Assembly: GCF_014174165.1 (NCBI RefSeq)
Contig: NZ_JABEQN010000001.1
Location: 248,001 to 312,000, forward strand
Length of the DNA: 64,000 bases
Direction of reading: 5' to 3'
From: Gluconacetobacter dulcium
GTDB lineage: Bacteria > Pseudomonadota > Alphaproteobacteria > Acetobacterales > Acetobacteraceae
Below the pieces are notes generated by a model that searched no databases, was not told where the DNA came from, and saw only the letters and a list, made by a program, of their open reading frames with translations. Positions 9,293 through 47,661 of this stretch are shown in pieces; the stretch's first letter is position 1, and every line of letters starts with the position of its first letter. The position numbers and the translations under genes were made by a program.

Positions 9293-10945
9293 ATGGATCT
9301 GTTATCCTCTCTCTCGGTAGCCACCAGCGGCCTGAATGCGATCGAATATCAATATTCCGTCACATCCCAGAATGTCGCCAACCAGAGCACCACAGGCTAT
9401 GTGAGCGAGACGGCGACCGTCACGAGCGCCGTCACCGCCGGCGTCGGAAATGGCGTCCGTATCGGCGCGACGCAACTGCATATCAATCAGGCGCTGCAAT
9501 CCGCCCTGTATGCGCAGAATGCCCAGGTCGCATCCTACACCGCGATGGACAATTCACTCACCGCGCTTTCGGCGGTCCAGGGCACGACGGCAGCGAATTC
9601 GACAAACACCACCCCTGCCGGCACCACCAATACGCTGACCGATCAACTGGGCAACGTGCAGGCCGAGCTGACATCGCTGATTTCCACGCCCTTGCAAAGC
9701 GTAGCGCAGACACAGGTGATTACGGGCGCGCAGTCCCTGACCAATACGATCCATACGCTGTCATCGACCTATGCGACCCAGCGCCAGAATGCGCAGGACA
9801 GTGTCGCCTCGACGGTCCCGGCCATCAATTCCGACCTGACGCAGATCGGCGTTCTTTCGCAACAGATCGTGAAGTTCAAGTCGCTCGGCTCCGATACGGC
9901 CGATCTCGAGAATCAGCGCCTGGGGGTCATGACCGACCTGTCGTCGAAGCTGTCGGTCACATTTTCCCAGTCATCGAACGGCGACATGATCGTCCGGACC
10001 GAGGACGGCACGAAACTGCCGACCCGTCCCGACCAGATCGGACTCAGCGACAGTTCACAGAAGCTGCCTTCCACGACCTGGCCGCTCAGCACCAGCGACG
10101 TGACCGTTACATCAGCGATGTCCTACACGGGTGGCAGCACCTCGGCGATCCCCGGCATCATGCTGACCGGCACCGACATTACCTCGCATCTGGCCGGCGG
10201 CACGCTCGGTGCAAACATTACCCTGCGCGACGAGACCTACCCGAAGGCGCAGGCGCAGTTGGATTCGTTCTCCTATACATTGATCAACCGCTTCAATAAC
10301 GCGGGCCTCTCGCTGTTCACGAACGGCACCGATGCCACGGGCACGACCGTGCCCCAATCGTCCAACACGACGCAAACGACACCGGCCGGCATCGTCGGCC
10401 TGTCCTCCGCGATCAGCGTCAGCACCATGTATGTCAATACACCGTCTCTGCTGACGACAACGACGACCACAACCGACAACGCAGGCAACAAGACGACGAC
10501 GGCCGCCACCAATACGACCACCGGCACGACAACGGCCGGCGATTCGACCATCATTCAGCAGGTTCTCAGCCAGGCATTCGGCACCAGCGCCGCCAATGTC
10601 AGCGACCAGACCAGTTCCGGCGGCCCTGATCTCGCGGCCCCGACAAACAATCTGGGCGTGAACGGAAATATCTCGACCGGCTATACCGGCGCCCAGGGGC
10701 TGCTTCAGTTGGCCACGGCGCTCACGTCGGACCAGGGCGCGACCATCGCGGCGACCAGCAGCAATCTGGCGGCCAGCACATCGGTCCAGACCGTCCTGCA
10801 GGCAAAAGTCGCGGATGTCTCCGGCGTCAACGTCAATGACGAACTGGCCAAGGTCGTGGCCTTGCAGAACGCCTACACTGCCAACGCCAAGATCGTATCC
10901 GCAGTCCAGACAATGTTTACCGCGTTTCTGAACGCCATCAACTAA
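9293..10945 (+). CDS. flgK: Flagellar hook-associated protein 1 FlgK
   Basis: 550 residues. FlgK forms the first hook-filament junction layer. The N-terminus MDLLSSLSVATSGLNAIEYQYSVTSQNVANQSTTGY is the FlgK version of the rod/hook signature (quoted over two pieces: SGLNAIEYQYSVTSQNVAN and STTGY). The central region has the FlgK coiled-coil (VPAINSDLTQIGVLSQQIVKF, LENQRLGVMTDLSSKL) and the end has DELAKVVALQNAYTANAKIV, the conserved C-terminal helix. A Thr-rich insert around residues 385-415 is unusual and probably part of the exposed variable domain. Translation is followed 23 bases later by flgL. Confidence 0.92.
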   Translation: MDLLSSLSVATSGLNAIEYQYSVTSQNVANQSTTGYVSETATVTSAVTAGVGNGVRIGATQLHINQALQSALYAQNAQVASYTAMDNSLTALSAVQGTTAANSTNTTPAGTTNTLTDQLGNVQAELTSLISTPLQSVAQTQVITGAQSLTNTIHTLSSTYATQRQNAQDSVASTVPAINSDLTQIGVLSQQIVKFKSLGSDTADLENQRLGVMTDLSSKLSVTFSQSSNGDMIVRTEDGTKLPTRPDQIGLSDSSQKLPSTTWPLSTSDVTVTSAMSYTGGSTSAIPGIMLTGTDITSHLAGGTLGANITLRDETYPKAQAQLDSFSYTLINRFNNAGLSLFTNGTDATGTTVPQSSNTTQTTPAGIVGLSSAISVSTMYVNTPSLLTTTTTTTDNAGNKTTTAATNTTTGTTTAGDSTIIQQVLSQAFGTSAANVSDQTSSGGPDLAAPTNNLGVNGNISTGYTGAQGLLQLATALTSDQGATIAATSSNLAASTSVQTVLQAKVADVSGVNVNDELAKVVALQNAYTANAKIVSAVQTMFTAFLNAIN

Positions 10946-10968
10946 TACAAGATCGGGATAGAAAACTG

Positions 10969-12066
10969 ATGAGTTCGGCAATCAATCAATATGGCGGCGG
11001 CGCGCCCTCACTGATTCTTTCCGCCGGCATCAAGGCTATGTCCCTCCAACAGGAAACCCTCACCTGGCAGGCCAGCAACGGCACCATTGCTCCGACCTTC
11101 GCCGGCCTCGGTTCCACACGATCGACAGCGATCAGCCTCACGCCGAAAATCACCCAGATCAAGGCATGGCAATCCAATATCACGAATGCGCAGACCGACC
11201 TGACCGTCACGGCCAGCGCCCTGGCCCAGCTTGTCTCACAAGCCCAGGCCATGGCGACAAGCCTGCTCAGTGTTTCCGGCACAACCGAGACCAGCGCGGT
11301 ATCGGCCGTGGCCGAACAGGCCACAAGTTCCCTCTCCGCCCTCAAGAGCGTCCTCAATACGACCAGCGGTTCGACTTATATCTTTTCCGGAACCGATACC
11401 AACACGCCGACGATCGCCGGCTCGGAGCCGCTCGCGAACAGCAAGCTCGCAACGACGATTTCTGGCATCATGAACGCGCTCTCCACCGATGGCGCGACAT
11501 CGGCACTGCAACAGGCCACGACGGCCGCCGGAACGAACGATGCGTCTTCCAGCGATCCGCTCTCTGTCTTTGCCTCGTCCATTTCGGTTTCAGCCAATTC
11601 GGCCAAGGACCAGCAGCGTGTCACGGTGACGAACAACGACTCGACGACAAATGTCGGTATCGTCGCGACACAAAGCTCGACGACCTCCGCAGCGTCCTCG
11701 ACATCGACGGGATCGCCGATCCGCGACCTGATGCGCGACATGATGATGACCTCGGCCATGGGTGGCATGTCATCATCGACAAGCGGCTTTTCAGACATGG
11801 CGAAGCAGCTTTATTCGTCACTGCAAACCACCATCAGCCAACTCACCGAACTGGAAGCGTCGGTCGGCACCACCCAGAATAACCTGACGGCACAATCGAG
11901 CCTGCTGACCAATGTCCAGTCGACGCTGGAAGATCAGCTTGACGATTCCATGGGTGTCGATCCCGCTGTCGTCGCCACCCAGGTCGCATCCGTCAAATTG
12001 CAGCTTGAAGTCTCCTACAAGCTGGTTGCCGATATGAAGGGCATGACGCTGGCAGATTATATCTAA
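10969..12066 (+). CDS. flgL: Flagellar hook-associated protein 3 FlgL
   Basis: 365 residues. FlgL forms the second junction layer between hook and filament and is flagellin-like. The N-terminal helix includes LSAGIKAMSLQQETLTWQASNG, and there is the FlgL/flagellin-like STYIFSGTDTNTPTI segment about a third of the way along. The C-terminal helix (SSLLTNVQSTLEDQLDDSMGVDPAVVATQVASVKLQLEVSYK, in part LEDQLDDSMGVDPAVVATQ) matches FlgL ends. Tight linkage behind flgK supports this over a flagellin. It appears to be the last gene of the flgK operon. Confidence 0.88.
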   Translation: MSSAINQYGGGAPSLILSAGIKAMSLQQETLTWQASNGTIAPTFAGLGSTRSTAISLTPKITQIKAWQSNITNAQTDLTVTASALAQLVSQAQAMATSLLSVSGTTETSAVSAVAEQATSSLSALKSVLNTTSGSTYIFSGTDTNTPTIAGSEPLANSKLATTISGIMNALSTDGATSALQQATTAAGTNDASSSDPLSVFASSISVSANSAKDQQRVTVTNNDSTTNVGIVATQSSTTSAASSTSTGSPIRDLMRDMMMTSAMGGMSSSTSGFSDMAKQLYSSLQTTISQLTELEASVGTTQNNLTAQSSLLTNVQSTLEDQLDDSMGVDPAVVATQVASVKLQLEVSYKLVADMKGMTLADYI

Positions 12067-38750: not shown

Positions 38751-40034
38751 ATGCGACCATTGAGACAAAACGGCCATGCCGGAAACCCGGATGCGGGGAT
38801 CAAGATCCTGTTCGCGTTCGAAAATCCGCTCCCCAGCGCCGAGGCCGACGCCGAAGTCTTCATCACCACCGCCCGCTACCTGGCCCGCCTGACCTCCCGC
38901 GCGCGGCTGCACGTTCCCATGCGCGACCGGGCCTCCTGCGCGACCCTGGCCGAGGCCACGGGCCTGGACATCGTGCGCGCCTGGGCACCGGCCAGCCCGG
39001 CCGCCCTGCGTCACCTGATGTGCGGCCTGACCATCGTCTGCCGCAGCGCCTTCCGCCAGGCCGATCTGGTCTATACCCGCAATCTGTGGATCGCCTGGAT
39101 GGCCATCCGGTTCGGCCAGCGCGTGGTCTTCGACCATTATCGCCCGTGGCCCGACCAGATCCCTCCGCTCCGCCGCTGGCTGCACCGGCTGATGAACCAC
39201 CCGCGCTTCATCCTCCATATCTGCCACTCGGATTATACGCGGCGGAAATATCTGGAACTGGGGGTGCCCGCCGCAAAACTGCGCTGCATCCATAACGGCT
39301 TCGAACCCGGACGGCTGGATGCGATCCCCGCCCCGGCCATCGCGCGACAGGCCCTGTCCATTCCCACAACCGCCCGGACGATCGTCTATACGGGCCGGAT
39401 CAACCAGAAGAAGGGCCTCGATGTCGTCATCGAGGCGGCGCGCCTGCTGCCCGACCGACTGTTCATCCTCGTCGGTTCCTATGGCGAAGGACCGATCGAG
39501 GAAAAGGCCCGCCTCCTGCCCAACGTGCGGATCGTTCCCTTCCAGCCATCCGAGGCCCTGGGCCAGTATGTCGCGGCGGCCGATATCCTGCTGGTCCCAC
39601 CGTCGCTCCAGCCCCTGACGCGGTTCGGATCGACGGTACTTCCGCTCAAGCTGTTCTTCTACCTGGCCTCCGGCCGCCCGATCCTGGCCGGAAAGACGCC
39701 GGACGTGCAGGAAATCCTGCGCCACGAAGAAAATGCCTATCTCTGCCAGCCTGATTCCCCCCAGGCGCTGGCCGACGCCGTGCGACGACTGACCGACGAC
39801 CCCACCCTGTGCGCACGCCTCGCCGAAGCCGCGCAGGCGGAAAGCCGCACCCTGACATGGGAAGCCCGCGCCACGCGGATCATGACCGCGATCTCCGAGC
39901 GCCTGGCCGCCGCACCCGATCCGGTCGAACGCTGGAAGACACCCCAATGGCGGCAGTACCGGCACCAATCCTGGCGCTGGCTGCAACATCTGATCCGCAC
40001 AGGGTCGCCGATCCTGCCGCCCTCAGGCTCCTGA
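38751..40034 (+). CDS. Glycosyltransferase, GT4 family
   Basis: 427 residues. The GT-B C-terminal half has RTIVYTGRINQKKGLDVVIEAARLL and a nucleotide-sugar site ending PLKLFFYLASGRPILAGKTPDVQEIL, with the EX7E-like FYLASGRPI region of GT4 enzymes. The N-terminal acceptor half has NLWIAWMAIRF and DHYRPWPDQIPP. It is cytoplasmic or membrane-associated. It probably adds sugar to LPS or another surface glycan, as lptF and lptG follow. No good ribosome binding site precedes the start, so the start is uncertain. Confidence 0.82.
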   Translation: MRPLRQNGHAGNPDAGIKILFAFENPLPSAEADAEVFITTARYLARLTSRARLHVPMRDRASCATLAEATGLDIVRAWAPASPAALRHLMCGLTIVCRSAFRQADLVYTRNLWIAWMAIRFGQRVVFDHYRPWPDQIPPLRRWLHRLMNHPRFILHICHSDYTRRKYLELGVPAAKLRCIHNGFEPGRLDAIPAPAIARQALSIPTTARTIVYTGRINQKKGLDVVIEAARLLPDRLFILVGSYGEGPIEEKARLLPNVRIVPFQPSEALGQYVAAADILLVPPSLQPLTRFGSTVLPLKLFFYLASGRPILAGKTPDVQEILRHEENAYLCQPDSPQALADAVRRLTDDPTLCARLAEAAQAESRTLTWEARATRIMTAISERLAAAPDPVERWKTPQWRQYRHQSWRWLQHLIRTGSPILPPSGS

Positions 40035-40156: not shown

Positions 40157-41299
40157 TTGTACGCCCCGGCGCGATCCATGCCCCCGACGGACGGTTTTCA
40201 TACCTTGATCATTCGTACCTATCTTCTGCGCGAAATCGGGAAGCCACTGGCAACCATGCTGGTGGTGTGCATGGCCCTGTTCGCCGGCTACAGCGCCGCC
40301 GATTTCCTGTCGGACGCGGTCAACGGGCTGCTGTCCACCAACACGATCGTGGAACTGATCGTGCTCAAGCTCCTGATCAGCCTGGAAGTCCTGGTCCCGG
40401 TGGCGCTGTACCTGTCCATCGTGCTGGCACTGGGCACATTGTACGGCAATTCCGAAATCACGGCGCTCCATGCCCTGCGCGTCACCCCCGGCATGCTGCT
40501 CCGCCATGTCATGACACTGGCCGGGTGCGTCGCCATCGGGGTCGGCATCCTGTCGCTGGTCGTGCGCCCGTGGGCGTACGAGCGCCTGCATGCCCTCTCG
40601 CGCAGCGCCGAACTGACGTTGGATGTGGACGCAATGCAACCCGGCACCTTCTACGTCGTGCAGAACGGCGCGCGCGTCATCTTCCTCACCCGGCGCCAGG
40701 GGCCCAACGGCCCGGCACGGGATATCTTCGTCCAGTTGCGCCGCCCCAACGACACAAGGATCATCCATGCCGAACTCGGCTATCCCGTAGCCGACGACGT
40801 CAACGGCCGGACCGATTTCTACGTGCGGCTGAAGAATGCCCATATCTACGATATCGCCACCCGGCCGGGCGCGCATGACCAGGTCATGACCGTGCGCGAA
40901 ATCACGCAGGACCCGAACCGCCATGTGGTGGACGCGCCGGACGACAGTTCGGTGACCACCGGCAGCCTGAGCATCGCCGCCTCGCACCAGCCGGCGGACG
41001 TGGCGGAATTCCAGTGGCGCCTGTCCACCCCCCTCACAACCATATTGCTGGCGATGCTGGCGGTGCCGCTGGCACGCGGGCGCCCCCGGCAGAACCGCTA
41101 CGGCAAGCTGGGGACCGCGATCCTGATCTTCTTCGTCTATTACCTGCTCTATACGTCCGCCCGCACCTGGGTGCAGCACGGCATGGTGGCCGCGTTCCCC
41201 GGCATCTGGTGGGCGCCCGCCCTGCTGGCGGTCCTGACCGGCTTCATGCTGCGCGGCCAGATCGCCGATCTCCTGTCCCGACGGGCCGACGCGCCATGA
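40157..41299 (+). CDS. lptF: LPS export ABC transporter permease LptF
   Basis: 380 residues from a TTG with GAAGAGAG upstream; an ATG at 40178 is the alternative. Six membrane helices flank a periplasmic beta-jellyroll region, the YjgP/YjgQ family layout. Motifs: LIIRTYLLREIGKPL at the start, NSEITALHALRVTPGMLL (coupling helix), and EFQWRLSTPLTTILLAMLAVPLARGRPRQNRYGKL. LptF with LptG extracts LPS from the inner membrane. It overlaps lptG by ATGA. Confidence 0.9.
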   Translation: MYAPARSMPPTDGFHTLIIRTYLLREIGKPLATMLVVCMALFAGYSAADFLSDAVNGLLSTNTIVELIVLKLLISLEVLVPVALYLSIVLALGTLYGNSEITALHALRVTPGMLLRHVMTLAGCVAIGVGILSLVVRPWAYERLHALSRSAELTLDVDAMQPGTFYVVQNGARVIFLTRRQGPNGPARDIFVQLRRPNDTRIIHAELGYPVADDVNGRTDFYVRLKNAHIYDIATRPGAHDQVMTVREITQDPNRHVVDAPDDSSVTTGSLSIAASHQPADVAEFQWRLSTPLTTILLAMLAVPLARGRPRQNRYGKLGTAILIFFVYYLLYTSARTWVQHGMVAAFPGIWWAPALLAVLTGFMLRGQIADLLSRRADAP

Positions 41300-42375
41300 A
41301 ACTGAAACGCTTCGACCGCTATATCCAGCTCGTCACGCTGCGGGCCTTCGTCCTGGTCGCACTGGGGCTCACGGCCCTGTTCAGCCTCCTGGAATTCGTC
41401 GACCAGCTCTCCTACGTCGGCCAGGGACATTATCGCCTGGCCGACGCCGCCGCCTATACCGCCCTGCTGGCGCCGGCACGCTTCATGCAGGTCACGCCCA
41501 TCGCGCTGCTGCTGGCATGCCTGCTGGGCCTGGGCGGCCTCGCCAAACATTCCGAGCTTACGGCCCTGCAAGGGATCGGACTCTCCGAAATGCAGATCAT
41601 CGGCGCCGTGCTGCGCCTGATCGTGCCGACGATCGTCCTGCTGTTCCTGGTCGGGCAGTTCGTCGTGCCCTCGGCGCGCCACATGGCGCAGCAGGGGCGT
41701 GCCACCGCCCTCACCTCCGGCGCGGTGAACGCCGCGGACAACACGGCGTTCTGGGCTCATGGCGACCAGCAGTTTCTCGGCGTCCACCGCTTCGTCAACG
41801 AAAAGCTGGGCGAAGACATCGACATCTACCGTTTCGACGACCAGGGCGCGCTGACACGCTATCTGCATGCGGCCCACGCCACGATCGGCGCGGACGACAA
41901 CTGGGTTCTGACGGACGTCACACGCAAGGACATCGTCGCCGACCAGTTCCACACGAGCCACCAGGACAGCATGACATGGCATGCCTTCCTGTCGTCGCGG
42001 CAGATCCGTTTCCTCAGCCTGCCGCCCGAGAGCGTGCCGCCCATCGCCCTGTATCGCTACATTCGCGATCTCAAGCGGCATCATCTGCCGGCCACGCGCT
42101 ACGAGCAGGAACTATGGTCGCGCATCAGCACGCCATTCGCCATGATCGCGCTGATCGCCTGCGCCGCACCCTTCGTCTTCGGGCCACCGCGCTCGCAGAG
42201 CCTCGGCTATCGCATGGCCATCGGCATCGCGATCGCCATCGTGTTCTCACTGGGGCAGGAAATCACCAACCGGCTGGGCCTGCTGCTGGACCTGAACCCG
42301 GCGATCACAGCCCTCACCCCTCCCATCCTGCTGATGCTGTCGGCGGCCTATCTCTTCATCCACACCCGAGAATAA
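41296..42375 (+). CDS. lptG: LPS export ABC transporter permease LptG
   Basis: 359 residues with six membrane helices. Start FDRYIQLVTLRAFVLVALG, coupling helix HSELTALQGIGLSEMQIIGAVL and end ELWSRISTPFAMIALIACAAPFVFGPPRS fit LptG. It is translated with lptF through a four-base overlap. Its partner ATPase lptB is not in the window. Confidence 0.9.
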   Translation: MKLKRFDRYIQLVTLRAFVLVALGLTALFSLLEFVDQLSYVGQGHYRLADAAAYTALLAPARFMQVTPIALLLACLLGLGGLAKHSELTALQGIGLSEMQIIGAVLRLIVPTIVLLFLVGQFVVPSARHMAQQGRATALTSGAVNAADNTAFWAHGDQQFLGVHRFVNEKLGEDIDIYRFDDQGALTRYLHAAHATIGADDNWVLTDVTRKDIVADQFHTSHQDSMTWHAFLSSRQIRFLSLPPESVPPIALYRYIRDLKRHHLPATRYEQELWSRISTPFAMIALIACAAPFVFGPPRSQSLGYRMAIGIAIAIVFSLGQEITNRLGLLLDLNPAITALTPPILLMLSAAYLFIHTRE

Positions 42376-42413
42376 AGAACCAAGCTCCCAACCACCCGAA
42401 AACGAACGGGTTT

Positions 42414-42457
42414 CCAAAGGGCGACTGCCCTTTGGTGGGTCAAGGGCAAAGCCCTTG
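42414..42457. terminator. Double hairpin between convergent genes
   Basis: Stem CCAAAGGGC/GCCCTTTGG (loop GACT) is followed by stem CAAGGGC/GCCCTTG (loop AAA). There is no long T run, so it may be a recurrent intergenic element that acts as a bidirectional transcription barrier between lptG and the leftward phosphatidyltransferase gene. Confidence 0.55.
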
Positions 42458-42462
42458 CCGCA

Positions 42463-43479
42463 TCACGGCACGAGCGACGCTTCCGCCTTCACCGCGAACA
42501 CCGCCTGATCGCGGCGGCGTTCACCGGGGCAAGGCACGTCCCCGGCCAGACCATCAAGTCCGGCCATGAACGCCCCGTCGCACATGCGCTGTCGCGCCAG
42601 CAGCAGCATCAGGATCGCCGAGAACCCCACGATCTCGAACATGAAATAAGCCAGCGGCACGCGGCAGATCACGCAGAGAAAGATGCCGATCGTCCGATAA
42701 TTGGCGGACAGGATCGACCAGCCACGCAGCAGCGGCGCAAACGCCTCGCGATAGGCCTGGCGGATCACCGGCCCCCGGTCGGGATGCTCGGCCAGCAACG
42801 CCGCCAGCCGCTGGTTCAGCCCCGCCTCCCCGCCCGGCGCGGTCAGCGCCTCAAGCCGATTATACAGCCCGAACAGCAGGTCGCCCACGCGCCGGCCGGA
42901 GGCGACCTTCGCCCGTGCCACCGGCGCCGATCCACGCGCCCAGCCCCAGAAATTATAATCCTGCCGCTGCCGTTCATAGGCGGCCGACTGCACCGCATGG
43001 CATCCGCCCGCCAGCACGACCAGCGCCCAGACCCACGCGCCGTAGAGGGCGGAAAGCGCCAGCGCCAGCCCGACATAAACCGAGACGAACGTCACGTAAT
43101 CGCAGATACCGTCCAGAATCTTGCCGGTCTGCGACTGCTTGCCCGTCAGGCGCGCAAGCTGGCCGTCCGCCCCGTCCATCACATGCCAGACGACCATGAG
43201 CAGGAACCCGGCCACCGCGAAACGCACATCGCCGACATGGTGATAGGCCGCCCCCGCCAGCACCCCGGCCGCCATCCCGCCGAGCGACACGGCATTGGGT
43301 GCCACCCCCAGACGCGCGAAATGCCGCGTCAGCCATCCCGAAACCGGATGGATGACGTACAGGTTGGTCAGTTCTTCGATTTCCGACGTGCGCCGCACGG
43401 GATCTGTCTGCTGCAACACGATGGCACCCTTGTTTCCCTGGTTCCCCGCGCCATACGGGCCGGGAGCGATCCCTGTCAA
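42463..43479 (-). CDS. CDP-alcohol phosphatidyltransferase family enzyme (inositol pathway)
   Basis: 338 residues from a TTG that overlaps the stop of the upstream gene, with AAGGG before it. The diagnostic motif D-xx-DG-xx-AR-x8-G-xxx-D-xxx-D is complete: Asp102, Asp105, Arg110, Gly119, Asp123, Asp127. About six membrane helices. The family joins a CDP-activated alcohol to a second alcohol. Because the two genes before it make inositol phosphate and probably CDP-inositol, it likely transfers inositol phosphate to a lipid or to inositol. A long soluble insert at about 170-260 is unlike the compact PgsA or PssA enzymes. Third gene of a tight operon. Confidence 0.87.
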   Translation of the reverse strand: MTGIAPGPYGAGNQGNKGAIVLQQTDPVRRTSEIEELTNLYVIHPVSGWLTRHFARLGVAPNAVSLGGMAAGVLAGAAYHHVGDVRFAVAGFLLMVVWHVMDGADGQLARLTGKQSQTGKILDGICDYVTFVSVYVGLALALSALYGAWVWALVVLAGGCHAVQSAAYERQRQDYNFWGWARGSAPVARAKVASGRRVGDLLFGLYNRLEALTAPGGEAGLNQRLAALLAEHPDRGPVIRQAYREAFAPLLRGWSILSANYRTIGIFLCVICRVPLAYFMFEIVGFSAILMLLLARQRMCDGAFMAGLDGLAGDVPCPGERRRDQAVFAVKAEASLVP

Positions 43480-44192
43480 AGCAGCCCTTGGGCCATCAGA
43501 CGTTCGGCCTTGTCGTAGGCCACCGGATCATCGACATCGATCCACAGATGTTCGCCGATATCGAGGACATACGCCTTGTGCCAGCGGGCCAGCGTGTTCA
43601 TGGCGCCGGATATACTATCCTCGCCCTCTGCCTGGCTGCTTTCCAGCGCATCGAACATCTCGGGCGTACACCGGAAGATCCCGGTATCGAACGCATTGAA
43701 CTCCGTCAGCGACTTGCCGATACGCTCGATCCGTCCGTCCCGACACAGAACGCGCGTCACGTCGTCCGGATCGTTCAGCATGCGCTCCACATTGCTGTCA
43801 ACACCCAGCGTCACACCGTCCCGGCCTGTCGGGATCGCCGCCATCAGGCGATTGATCTCCGGGTCCAGCACATGGTCGCACATCGTCAGCAGAAACGGCC
43901 CGTCGAGGAACGGCCGGGCACAGAGAACGGAAACCCCGTTGGCGCGGTCCCATGCCGGATTATGCACATGGGTCACGCGCCCCCCGTCACATTCCGCCAT
44001 GTCGTCCAGGGCCGTACGCAACTCATCGCCGCGATAGCCGTTGATGATGACGAATTCATCGACCCCACCACGGCGGGCACGGTCGATAACCTCGGCGATC
44101 AGGGGCCGCCCCCGGATCGTGACCAGGGGCTTGAGCGGCCCCTTGTCACGCAGACGGCTGCCCTGCCCTGCGGCGACGATCAGGCACTTCAT
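43476..44192 (-). CDS. Nucleotidyltransferase, likely CTP:inositol-1-phosphate cytidylyltransferase
   Basis: 238 residues. The GT-A nucleotidyltransferase motif CLIVAAGQGSRLRDKGPLKPLV opens the protein (core AAGQGSRL and LKPL), and TMCDHVLDP, NAFDTGIFRCTPE follow. DHVxDP and FDTGxF are features of the inositol-1-phosphate cytidylyltransferases. Its neighbours, inositol phosphate synthase upstream and a CDP-alcohol transferase downstream (both overlapping), strongly suggest CDP-inositol as product. Another sugar-phosphate as substrate is not excluded by sequence alone. Confidence 0.82.
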   Translation of the reverse strand: MKCLIVAAGQGSRLRDKGPLKPLVTIRGRPLIAEVIDRARRGGVDEFVIINGYRGDELRTALDDMAECDGGRVTHVHNPAWDRANGVSVLCARPFLDGPFLLTMCDHVLDPEINRLMAAIPTGRDGVTLGVDSNVERMLNDPDDVTRVLCRDGRIERIGKSLTEFNAFDTGIFRCTPEMFDALESSQAEGEDSISGAMNTLARWHKAYVLDIGEHLWIDVDDPVAYDKAERLMAQGLL

Positions 44193-45319
44193 CAGGCGGG
44201 AACGGCCTCGGTCGAATGGGTGGTGATGAACTCTTCGACCATCTTGTAGGCTTCGTCATCCGTGTACTGGACCAGCGGATGCTTGCAGAAATAGGCGCTG
44301 GGCGCGGCCAGAACACCACCGACGCCGGAATCGAGCGCCAGCTTGCAGCAGCGGATCATGTCGATGGCCACACCCGCCGAGTTCGGCGAATCCTGCACCG
44401 ACAAGCGCAGTTCCAGTTCCATCGGCACGTTGCCGAAGGCGTGGCCTTCCATGCGGATGAAGCAGACCTTGTTGTCGTTCTGCCACGGCACATAGTCGCT
44501 GGGGCCGACATGGATATCCTCGTTCTCCATGCGCGTCTTCGCGACGGCCTGCACGGCTTCGGTCTTCGAGGTCTTCTTCGACGCCAGACGCTCCTGATTC
44601 TTCATGTTCAGGAAGTCGGTGTTGCCGCCCGTGTTGAGCTGGTACGTGTGCAGCATCTTGACGCCGCGCTTGGCGAACAGGTCGGTCAGCACACGATGCA
44701 CGATGGTCGCGCCGAGCTGCGACTTGATGTCGTCACCGATGATCGGCACGTTGCGCTCGGCGAAGCGGGCGGCATATTCCGGATCGCTGGCGATGAAGAC
44801 CGGAATATTGTTGATGAAGCCGACCCCGGCCTCCAGCGCGCATTCGGCATAGAAGCGCGTGGCCTTCTCCGATCCGACCGGCAGGTAGTTCACCAGGATC
44901 TCGGCGCCGCTGCGGCGCAGTTCCGCCACCACGTCTTCCCGGCTCGGCTCCGGGGCGTCGGCCCGCACGAAGCTGCGCTTCTCGTCATAATTGGCCATGT
45001 GCTCGGACACGCCATCCAGCACCGCGCCCATCCGCACGGTCACGCCGCTGTCGGGGATGTTCGGCTCGAACTTCACCACGCAGTTGGGGGCGGAGAAAAT
45101 GGCACGGCTGACATCGGTGCCGACCTTGCGCGCGTCGATATCGAACGCCGCCACCACCTCGATGTCGCTGGGACGATAGCCACCAAGGCTCTCGTGCATC
45201 AGGCCGATGACTTCCTCGTTGTGGCGGTTCGGGCCGTAATAATGAATGCCCTGAATCAGGGCACTGGCACAATTGCCGACACCCACGATCGCGATACGGA
45301 TACCGCCCTTAGTCTTCAT
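44192..45319 (-). CDS. ino1: Myo-inositol-1-phosphate synthase
   Basis: 375 residues. It converts glucose 6-phosphate to 1L-myo-inositol 1-phosphate using bound NAD. The Rossmann motif [16 protein letters not shown] and the conserved [20 protein letters not shown] and NNIPVFIAS segments are seen. It matches the bacterial (actinobacterial-like) size, shorter than the eukaryotic enzyme. AGGGGA stands before the ATG. The stop shares one base with the next start. First gene of the inositol operon. Confidence 0.95.
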
Positions 45320-45886
45320 AATGTTCCCCTGCCCTCTTCGAGACCATAAAAAACGAACAGTCGCGGCGGCCGCCGGCCGAACGACGCATCAAAACACCCA
45401 TTGTCGCCTGAAAGAACCCGGTACCAGCATGCGATGCGGCCTCGGCCCACTCGATCGCCATACCGCGCCACTCCCTGATGCGATCCTCACCGATCGCCAC
45501 GAGCCTCCTGCTCCTTTGGCAAGCTATCGGGGAAATCAGGCGCCAGATCAAGAATGCGTCCCCGCCGGTTCCCCCTCTGCGGACATGCCGCCACGCCCAT
45601 TGCACGCATCCATGGCCCAGATGCGGCCGCGTCCGGCTCTATATGTTACAAGGAACGATGGTCTTTTAGTTAATTTAAGTTAATATCCAAGCAACCAAAA
45701 GACCCACCCTCAGCACCCTGCGCAGGCCAGATTTTCATCTTATATCATTAAAAACAATGCGTTAATAAAACATCCCCCATCCAAGCAAAACAGACTCGCC
45801 GCAAAACCACCGTCTTCGTTCTGTCATATTTGACATAAAATAAAATCACTCCCGACCAAAACCGCGCCCCATTGGTTACATTTATC
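45320..45886. other. Gene-free promoter region of the inositol operon
   Basis: About 570 bases without a supported gene. A stretch at 45660-45870 is markedly AT-rich, with TTAATTTAAGTTAA near 45670 and several T and A runs, in strong contrast to the surroundings. It is the likely promoter area of ino1 and may bind a nucleoid protein. I see no clear operator. Confidence 0.45.
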
Positions 45887-47026
45887 TCACCTGGCCCGGA
45901 AAATGGCACTCGTGGCAGCCACGTTGCGTGCCGTCACCCGCACATTGGTCGCCGCCTCGGCCAGGGCTTCCTCAAGCGTGCAAGGCCGGTTGACGACGCT
46001 GAAGACGGCGTCGATTCCATGGGCATGCACCTTTGCCGCATCGTGCCCCAACGACCCGGCGATGCCGATCACCGGTCGTCCGTGCCGACGGGCGACACGG
46101 GCGACGCCGATGGGGGCCTTGCCATGCACGGTCTGCCCGTCGATCCGGCCCTCGCCGGTAATCACCAGGTCGGCGTCGGAGAGGATGGCATCCAGCCCCA
46201 GCGCCTCCATGACGATCTCCACCCCCGGCCGCAGGGTGGCCCCCAGGAACGCCAGCGCCGCCGCCCCCATCCCGCCCGCCGCGCCGGCACCGGGCACGGC
46301 GTCGATCTCGCACCCCGTCGCGGCCGCGACATGCCGGGCATATCCGGCCAGCGCGTCATCCAGCAGGCCCACCATCTCGGGCGTCGCCCCTTTCTGCGGA
46401 CCGAAGACCGCGGAGGCCCCGGACGGTCCGGTCAGCGGATTATCGACATCGCAGGCCACCTCGACCCGGCAACCCGCCAACCGGGCATCGAGGCGTGAGA
46501 GGTCGATGCGCGCCAGACGCGCGAGTTCCGCACCACCGAACGCCAGCTCCACCTCGTCACGGTCGCGCAGCGAAGCCCCCAGAGCCTGTGCCATGCCGGC
46601 CCCGCCGTCATTGGTGGCGCTGCCGCCGAGTCCGAGAATCACATGCCGGCACCCTTCGTCGAGCGCCGCGAGGATCAGTTGCCCGACACCGTAGGTCGTG
46701 GCCGTCAGCGGATCGCGCCGGTCACGCGGCACCAGCATCAACCCGGCGGCGGCGGCCATTTCCACCACGGCCGTCTGTCCGTCACCCAGAATGCCGAACG
46801 CCGCCATGACGGGCGTCCCCAGCGGCCCGGTCACCTCCCGCGTCAGCATCCGCCCGCCCGTGGCCAACACCAGCGACTCCGCTGTCCCTTCGCCCCCATC
46901 TGCGGCCGGCAGCTTCACATAGGTCGCGTCGGGATAGATCTCGCGAAACCCGTCCTCGATCGCATCGGCCACCTGAAGGGCCGACAGGCTTTCCTTGAAG
47001 GAGTCACACACGATCACGATCTTCAT
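45887..47026 (-). CDS. garK: Glycerate 2-kinase
   Basis: 379 residues, the usual length. It phosphorylates D-glycerate to 2-phosphoglycerate. The N-terminus CDSFKESLSA, LPAADGGEGT, GLGGSATNDGGAGMAQALG and the end DLVITGEGRIDGQT are strong GarK/GlxK signatures. It is the last gene of the leftward unit that begins with the MFS transporter, with the repeat array between them, so it fits a sugar-acid route under CdaR. Confidence 0.94.
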   Translation of the reverse strand: MKIVIVCDSFKESLSALQVADAIEDGFREIYPDATYVKLPAADGGEGTAESLVLATGGRMLTREVTGPLGTPVMAAFGILGDGQTAVVEMAAAAGLMLVPRDRRDPLTATTYGVGQLILAALDEGCRHVILGLGGSATNDGGAGMAQALGASLRDRDEVELAFGGAELARLARIDLSRLDARLAGCRVEVACDVDNPLTGPSGASAVFGPQKGATPEMVGLLDDALAGYARHVAAATGCEIDAVPGAGAAGGMGAAALAFLGATLRPGVEIVMEALGLDAILSDADLVITGEGRIDGQTVHGKAPIGVARVARRHGRPVIGIAGSLGHDAAKVHAHGIDAVFSVVNRPCTLEEALAEAATNVRVTARNVAATSAIFRAR

Positions 47027-47078: not shown

Positions 47079-47661
47079 GGACATGTGCGCTGCAAGCGAG
47101 AACGGCCCACCAGGGCCACGCCCGGAGTGTGTTTCCGAACACCGGAGCGCAGGAAACGCGCCTCAGATCGCCCCAACGCACACATCCCTCCAGGCCAGCA
47201 AAGCGTGGCCGGACATGTGCGCTGGCAAGCGAGAACGACCCACCAGAGCCGCGCCCGGAGTGTGTTTCCGAACACCGGAGCGCAGGAAACGCGCGTAAGA
47301 TCGCCACAACACACACCTCCCTCCAGGCCAGCAAAGCGTGGCCGGACATGTGCGCTGGCGAGCGAGAGCGACCCGCCAGGGTCGCGCCCGTCGTGTGTTT
47401 CCGAGCACCGGGCGGAGCGACCTCAATGGCCGTGAGCACCGAAGCGCAGGAAACGCGCCTCAGATCGCCACAACACACACATCCCTCCAGGCCAGCAAAG
47501 CGTGGCCGGACATGTGCGCTGGCGAGCGAGAGCGACCCGCCAGGGTCGCGCCCGTCGTGTGTTTCCGAGCACCGGAGCGGAGCGGCCTCAATGGCCGTGA
47601 GCACCGGAGCGCAGGAAACGCGCGTCGGATCGCCGCCAGCGCGCATGTCCGGCCACGCTTT
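47079..47661. repeat. Array of four 132-164 bp repeats between MFS gene and garK
   Basis: Four units begin with GGACATGTGCGCT at 47079, 47211, 47344 and 47508, giving lengths of 132, 133, 164 and about 133 to 150 bp. Each ends in CCAGCAAAGCGTGGCC, except the last. Units 3 and 4 carry an extra segment of about 30 bp. At the right end (47641-47661) GCGCATGTCCGGCCACGCTTT is an inverted copy of the unit junction. Each unit contains short inverted repeats, such as GTGTT-TCCG-AACAC. The array touches the MFS stop codon. It is not a coding region as far as I can tell, and is transcribed in the leftward operon. Confidence 0.85.

Follow-up and report, generated by a model that had tools for sequence, protein, structure and literature searches.

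A putative CDP-inositol operon in Gluconacetobacter dulcium and its probable link to inositol phosphosphingolipids

A three-gene operon of Gluconacetobacter dulcium probably makes an inositol phosphosphingolipid through CDP-inositol. The operon lies in the window, by which we mean the whole 64,000-nucleotide stretch of DNA that was analysed. Ino1 would convert glucose-6-phosphate to inositol phosphate, and the gene 2 product would combine this with CTP to form CDP-inositol. The product of gene 3, a predicted CDP-inositol:ceramide phosphoinositol transferase, would then pass phosphoinositol from CDP-inositol to ceramide, giving inositol phosphoceramide and CMP with no phosphatidylinositol intermediate. 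The adjoining lptF and lptG paralogues may assist in bringing the completed lipid, perhaps with sugars added, to the outer membrane. We infer each catalytic step, the acceptor and the role in export, and we favour, in falling order of certainty, CDP-inositol as the donor, a lipid as the product and ceramide as the acceptor.

Inositol phosphosphingolipids are best known from fungi and plants. If our reading holds, bacteria would have a new route to them: inositol sphingolipid synthesis in Alphaproteobacteria would bypass phosphatidylinositol, by a logic unlike that of the eukaryotic and Bacteroides thetaiotaomicron routes, and its export genes would be named. In titles and abstracts from searches of open-access literature (most subscription papers fall outside this scope), we recognised no description of such an operon in Acetobacteraceae. 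PMC9246714 reports an inositol-like dihydroceramide in Novosphingobium acidiphilum without known genes, and the operon suggests where those genes might be sought.

Layout and conservation of the operon

The first-pass annotation described ino1, a nucleotidyltransferase gene and a CDP-alcohol phosphotransferase gene in this order, and the order is borne out, with all three on the minus strand and their families assigned by Pfam (Table 1). The ino1 product scores 123.9 bits against PF01658 (cut-off 27) and 430.2 bits against TIGR03450, which is under the cut-off of 638, and its best solved relative is 1GR0 (E 4.3e-114). Gene 2 matches PF12804 (53 bits, cut-off 27) and PF00483 (29 bits, cut-off 21.2), and gene 3 matches PF01066 (49.3 bits, cut-off 22). 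The genes had also been said to overlap end to end. This is true of ino1 and gene 2, which share a single base (TGATG), but probably not of genes 2 and 3. A gene 3 start at TTG 43479 would overlap gene 2 by 4 bases; however, the frame 5' of GTG 43419 is unconserved and is closed by a stop in locus L004, so GTG 43419, 56 bases past the gene 2 stop, is the likely start. A promoter and terminator scan of 42200-46000 gave signals no better than those of shuffles.

Table 1. The operon and neighbouring genes, in window positions
Feature	Coordinates	Strand	Family or basis
ino1, inositol-3-phosphate (= L-inositol-1-phosphate) synthase, 375 aa, ATG start	44192..45319	-	PF01658, TIGR03450
Gene 2, IPCT-type nucleotidyltransferase, 238 aa, predicted CTP:inositol-1-phosphate cytidylyltransferase	43476..44192	-	
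Gene 3, CDP-alcohol phosphotransferase, likely GTG start 43419	42463..43419	-	PF01066, complete motif; start by comparison
lptG paralogue, convergent with the operon; ATG overlaps lptF end	41296..42375	+	PF03739, own clade
lptF paralogue (TTG 40157 or ATG 40178)	40157..41299	+	PF03739, own clade
GT4-type glycosyltransferase	38751..40034	+	PF00534; relatives in L010, L013, L039, L045, L046

Identities to the corresponding G. liquefaciens DSM 5603 proteins (L002) are 99.5, 98.3 and 95.5% for the three products. The triplet is adjacent in 11 of 13 loci (L002-L010, L012 and L013), at protein identities of 54-99%, and the contigs of the other two, L011 and L014, begin inside it. Genes at part of the loci were picked by a crude script, and frames were kept only if supported by family or BLAST matches. 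Conservation of the triplet extends across Gluconacetobacter, Nguyenibacter and Acidocella to other Alphaproteobacteria; the arrangement of the triplet exceeds chance, and it recurs in still further genomes. In the window and close relatives, the neighbours of the operon are lptG, lptF and the GT4 gene, the last of which is a recurring neighbour of related clusters with a putative lipid role.

The glycerate kinase gene upstream was considered as a member of the system and rejected. A distance of 567 bases separates it from ino1, and it has matches in L002-L008, no match in L009-L014 (where the contigs of L009 and of the MAGs are short) and, in another set of 18 loci, a match only in L040, from the same genus. 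The interval separating the glycerate kinase and MFS genes holds direct repeats at positions 47115-47634: a 142-nt unit in three copies (91-100%), and four related units of 58 nt at a spacing of 133-165 bases.

Nucleotidyltransferase and transferase assignments

Activation of inositol as CDP-inositol, which the first-pass annotation had proposed, is a predicted chemistry that gains support from gene 2, whose closest match is the inositol-1-phosphate cytidylyltransferase (IPCT), whether by sequence, by curated model (under its cut-off) or by predicted fold; the partner genes on both sides are consistent with it. The top single-sequence matches are the IPCTs 2XME, 4MND and 4JD0, and a profile of eight gene 2 relatives found, at 1e-10, only the same three, all IPCT. 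In the search with the predicted fold (pLDDT 81.9), ranks 1-18 are all IPCT chains. The leading NCBIfam model is NF041135 (IPCT/DIPPS fusion), at 116.9 bits under a cut-off of 580 for a model of the fused Thermococcales enzyme; the next model scores 64.8 bits. The R, K and D aligned to R16, K26 and D112, residues named in PMC12275187, are retained. On sequence grounds, the gene 2 product is of the IPCT type.

The distinction from CpgD matters, because Caulobacter CpgD, a phosphoglycerate cytidylyltransferase for sphingolipid in the same superfamily, also resembles 4JD0 (PMC12275187). Were gene 2 a CpgD-like enzyme, the head group would be phosphoglycerate, and the glycerate kinase gene upstream of the window operon would fit. 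However, the kinase gene stands apart from ino1 and goes unmatched in L009-L014, and the motifs differ. MCDH and DTG occur in 7/7 operon nucleotidyltransferases and NGDT/GESI in 0/7, whereas 6/6 CpgD-like proteins have NGDT and GESI and none has MxDH or DTG; these six, all from genomes with serine palmitoyltransferase (SPT), are named CpgD-like by us, and the Caulobacter CpgD sequence itself is outside the comparison. (The L095 row of the motif alignment was in the wrong frame and was dropped.) The DTG of gene 2 is common to 2XME and 4JD0, and the MxDH is common to 2XME and absent in 4JD0. A control search with one CpgD-like protein put a phosphocholine cytidylyltransferase on top and 4JD0 at only 4.2e-7. 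We consider a phosphoglycerate head group highly improbable.

The gene 3 product has the complete motif DxxDGxxAR(8x)GxxxDxxxD, which is invariant in 9/9 alignment rows. It passed none of the curated synthase models: the best scores were 52.4 bits for archaetidylinositol phosphate synthase (cut-off 180) and 41.9 bits for PIP synthase (cut-off 170), with 28.8 bits for DIPPS (cut-off 580). Those two top models, along with weak matches to PIP synthase structures, could suggest an ordinary synthase that acts on CDP-diacylglycerol and inositol phosphate, with gene 2 serving something else. We find this very unlikely, as both scores are far under the cut-offs and the conserved coupling of gene 3 to an IPCT-type gene would lack an evident purpose. 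The predicted structure of the gene 3 product is mediocre (pLDDT 69.8); Foldseek with this model gave no match at 0.001, only weak superfamily matches that are silent on the acceptor, and the PIP-synthase substrate residues described in PMC4634129 had no reliable mapping onto gene 3. The gene 3 clade is marked by a mid-protein segment that is absent in the transferases of L047, L048, L051 and L052.

Acceptor, product and export

The first-pass annotation left the acceptor open; the neighbourhoods of relatives point to ceramide, and to the product being a lipid, not a solute. Among 120 Acetobacteraceae genomes, nine have the transferase at 219 bits or more (next score 51), and 36 have SPT at 429 bits or more (next score 205), as found with a query protein that passes model NF047599. 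All nine transferase carriers fall among the 36 SPT genomes, an overlap whose chance is 9.0e-6 by genome and 4.8e-5 by genus, ignoring relatedness; the other 27 SPT genomes are without the transferase. Eight of the nine carriers also have ino1 and gene 2. In the ninth, G029, the transferase has 38% identity, and ino1 and gene 2 were not found, with masked sequence adjoining the transferase gene that weakens this genome as a counterexample. By itself, ino1 does not track SPT, as it is present in 26 of the 120 genomes, 16 of these without SPT. Searches for gene 2 were confined to the 36 Acetobacteraceae with SPT (of the 120, 84 are SPT-free), 190 genomes of the class and three others.

Across 385 genomes of the class, scored for the best six candidates per genome, strong transferases besides that of the window genome appear only in G364 and G471, and weak matches in G126 and G266; with at most six candidates per genome, weaker carriers may be missed. 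G364 and G471 belong to other families, and both have ino1, gene 2 and an SPT gene adjoining the transferase. In G364 this SPT is a fragment at a contig end; a separate contig of that genome holds ino1 and gene 2 together with neighbouring CerS- and hydroxylase-like genes. Five of the 11 carrier genomes (G068, G098, G100, G364 and G471) have SPT within 4 kb of the transferase, as do loci L010-L014 (L013 is G068), the distance being within about 3 kb in L011, L012 and L014.

A serious rival keeps the CDP-inositol route and takes diacylglycerol as the acceptor, or makes both lipids, giving phosphatidylinositol, as is proposed for Bacteroides vulgatus and reported for Rhodothermus marinus. Published CDP-inositol proposals, as described in PMC9246714 and PMC10191378, use a glycerolipid acceptor. 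The Gluconacetobacter operon is also not beside SPT: none adjoins the triplet in the window or in L002, L003, L007, L008 and L009, a check that took in the window and five of eight Gluconacetobacter/Nguyenibacter loci and left out L004-L006. Furthermore, more distant cytidylyltransferases occur in six genomes (G135, G183, G126, G266, G177 and G299) in which SPT was not found (best score 197 bits), and in four of the six a same-type ino1-like gene adjoins the cytidylyltransferase; those four loci may follow a glycerolipid or solute route. However, the SPT-free loci examined, in four of the six genomes, have a different transferase clade, which lacks the mid-protein segment, and SPT is in every carrier genome checked, often adjoining the operon. 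On balance, we regard diacylglycerol as an unlikely acceptor, and ceramide as the favoured one.

L048:4743-8559, from G135, an alphaproteobacterium without SPT, holds ino1, an IMPase-like gene and a gene for a fused IPCT/DIPPS-like protein (NF041135 271 bits, cut-off 580), and has the look of an operon for di-inositol phosphate or an inositol lipid. L047:5247-9377 (G177) has a row of four genes: one for a cytidylyltransferase, then one for a CDP-alcohol transferase, then one for a protein that is MIPS-like by eye only and matches no NCBIfam model, and last one for a further CDP-alcohol transferase. In L114:8696-17035 (G021), roughly 6 kb separates ino1 (53% identity) from SPT, and genes 2 and 3 have no relatives there; this is perhaps another way to an inositol sphingolipid.

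Four loci, L010 (Acidocella facilis), L013, L044 and L131, have a complete ceramide gene set around the operon, made up of hydroxylase, CerS-, CerR- and AasR-like, ACP and SPT genes. The Caulobacter ceramide gene set is described in PMC11324152; the names CerS, CerR and AasR are putative here, given from family and company. The CerS position in the four loci is filled by a GNAT-like protein, and the hydroxylase is a fatty acid hydroxylase. In Gluconacetobacter, the ceramide link rests on these relatives and on the presence of SPT. The window genome has SPT on a contig other than that of the operon, in locus L106, which also has ACP, AasR-like and hydroxylase genes; the 13 kb around this SPT gave no match to CerS or CerR. 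Near this SPT lie a further LptF/LptG pair and a nucleotidyltransferase gene, so ceramide in the window genome may carry another head group. The nucleotidyltransferase is a second, different one (PF12804, 58.3 bits), found near SPT together with a protein without a Pfam match (L106:338-1129 and 10722-11852).

Sugar genes recur in the related clusters as well. A PF04488-type glycosyltransferase gene adjoins ino1 or gene 2 in seven loci (L010, L012, L013, L043, L045, L131 and L133), an assignment tested by Pfam in three proteins, all three over the cut-off. GT4b and PIG-L-like genes also recur, the PIG-L assignment being over the Pfam cut-off in one of three proteins tested and just under it in two. 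No match to PF04488, GT4b or PIG-L relatives was found within the window. One tentative reading, somewhat less likely than not, is that the wider clusters encode a bacterial glycosyl-inositol-phosphoceramide, like plant or fungal GIPC or the GPI core, and that Gluconacetobacter keeps the core of the module. CDP-inositol would donate directly to ceramide; the GT4, GT4b and PF04488 glycosyltransferases and the PIG-L-like deacetylase would build a sugar head, possibly of glucosamine-inositol; and the dedicated LptF/LptG pair would put the lipid in the outer membrane, beside LPS or replacing it.

The LptF and LptG of the window each cluster with those of ten other transferase-linked loci (support 0.999), in a clade separate from the ordinary pair and from SPT-linked pairs without the operon. 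The pair adjoins the transferase in nine of these ten loci and is about 11 kb off in G100. The tree was built from those 60 of the 80 PF03739 hits for which sequence was available, with two more from each of L008 and L010, and shows the ordinary pair for 17 of 20 genomes, those of G068, G029 and G364 being among the dropped hits. Of these 20 genomes, all 16 with SPT have at least four PF03739 genes, and all four without SPT have two. The window genome has three LptF/LptG pairs (6 PF03739 genes; G000 C1 and C23; L168, L152 and L106), which fall in three clades of the tree: ordinary, operon-adjacent and near SPT. For the Caulobacter cluster, a role in carrying sphingolipids has been proposed for the second copies of LptF and LptG (PMC11324152).

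A clade of their own for the operon-adjacent lptF and lptG favours an exported lipid over a solute. The solute in question would be di-myo-inositol phosphate, as in hyperthermophiles, and the IPCT similarity of gene 2 could be read this way, as could the fused IPCT/transferase beside an IMPase-like gene and ino1 in L048. However, gene 3 reaches only 28.8 bits against the DIPP synthase model, and relatives link the operon to ceramide genes as well as to the separate LptF/LptG clade. We give the solute reading very little credence, and the lipid reading is preferred.

Comparison with known systems

The gene 2 product is closest to the cytidylyltransferases of the hyperthermophile IPCT/DIPPS systems (2XME, 4MND and 4JD0). 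Unlike in those systems, gene 3 encodes a separate protein of another clade, as its DIPPS score indicates. Rhodothermus marinus reportedly has a CDP-inositol route to ether phosphoinositol lipids (work attributed to Jorge, 2015). There, CDP-inositol serves as donor to a lipid as it would here, but the acceptor is a glycerol ether lipid, in contrast to the ceramide favoured here. Eukaryotes and Bacteroides thetaiotaomicron take phosphoinositol from phosphatidylinositol, not from CDP-inositol. The predicted product class is nevertheless the same as in eukaryotic IPC and GIPC and in the AUR1-like inositol ceramide system of B. thetaiotaomicron (PMC9246714).

The Caulobacter ceramide phosphoglycerate system resembles the present one in its ceramide genes, a cytidylyltransferase of the same superfamily and a second LptF/LptG (PMC12275187, PMC11324152). 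It differs in its phosphoglycerate head group and in the motif type of the cytidylyltransferase, for which the CpgD-like proteins served as a stand-in.

The nearest published proposal is the alternative inositol lipid cluster of Bacteroides vulgatus, described in PMC9246714 with functions unconfirmed. As here, MIPS, a nucleotidyltransferase and a CDP-alcohol phosphatidyltransferase are clustered, CDP-inositol is proposed and the organisms make sphingolipids (PMC9246714). In that proposal, phosphatidylinositol is made first, and an HAD protein then shifts the head group to ceramide (PMC9246714). In contrast, and comparing the two by description, we propose a direct step to ceramide in the present system, in which no HAD partner was noticed and which is linked to LptF/LptG and, in relatives, to SPT and sugar genes.
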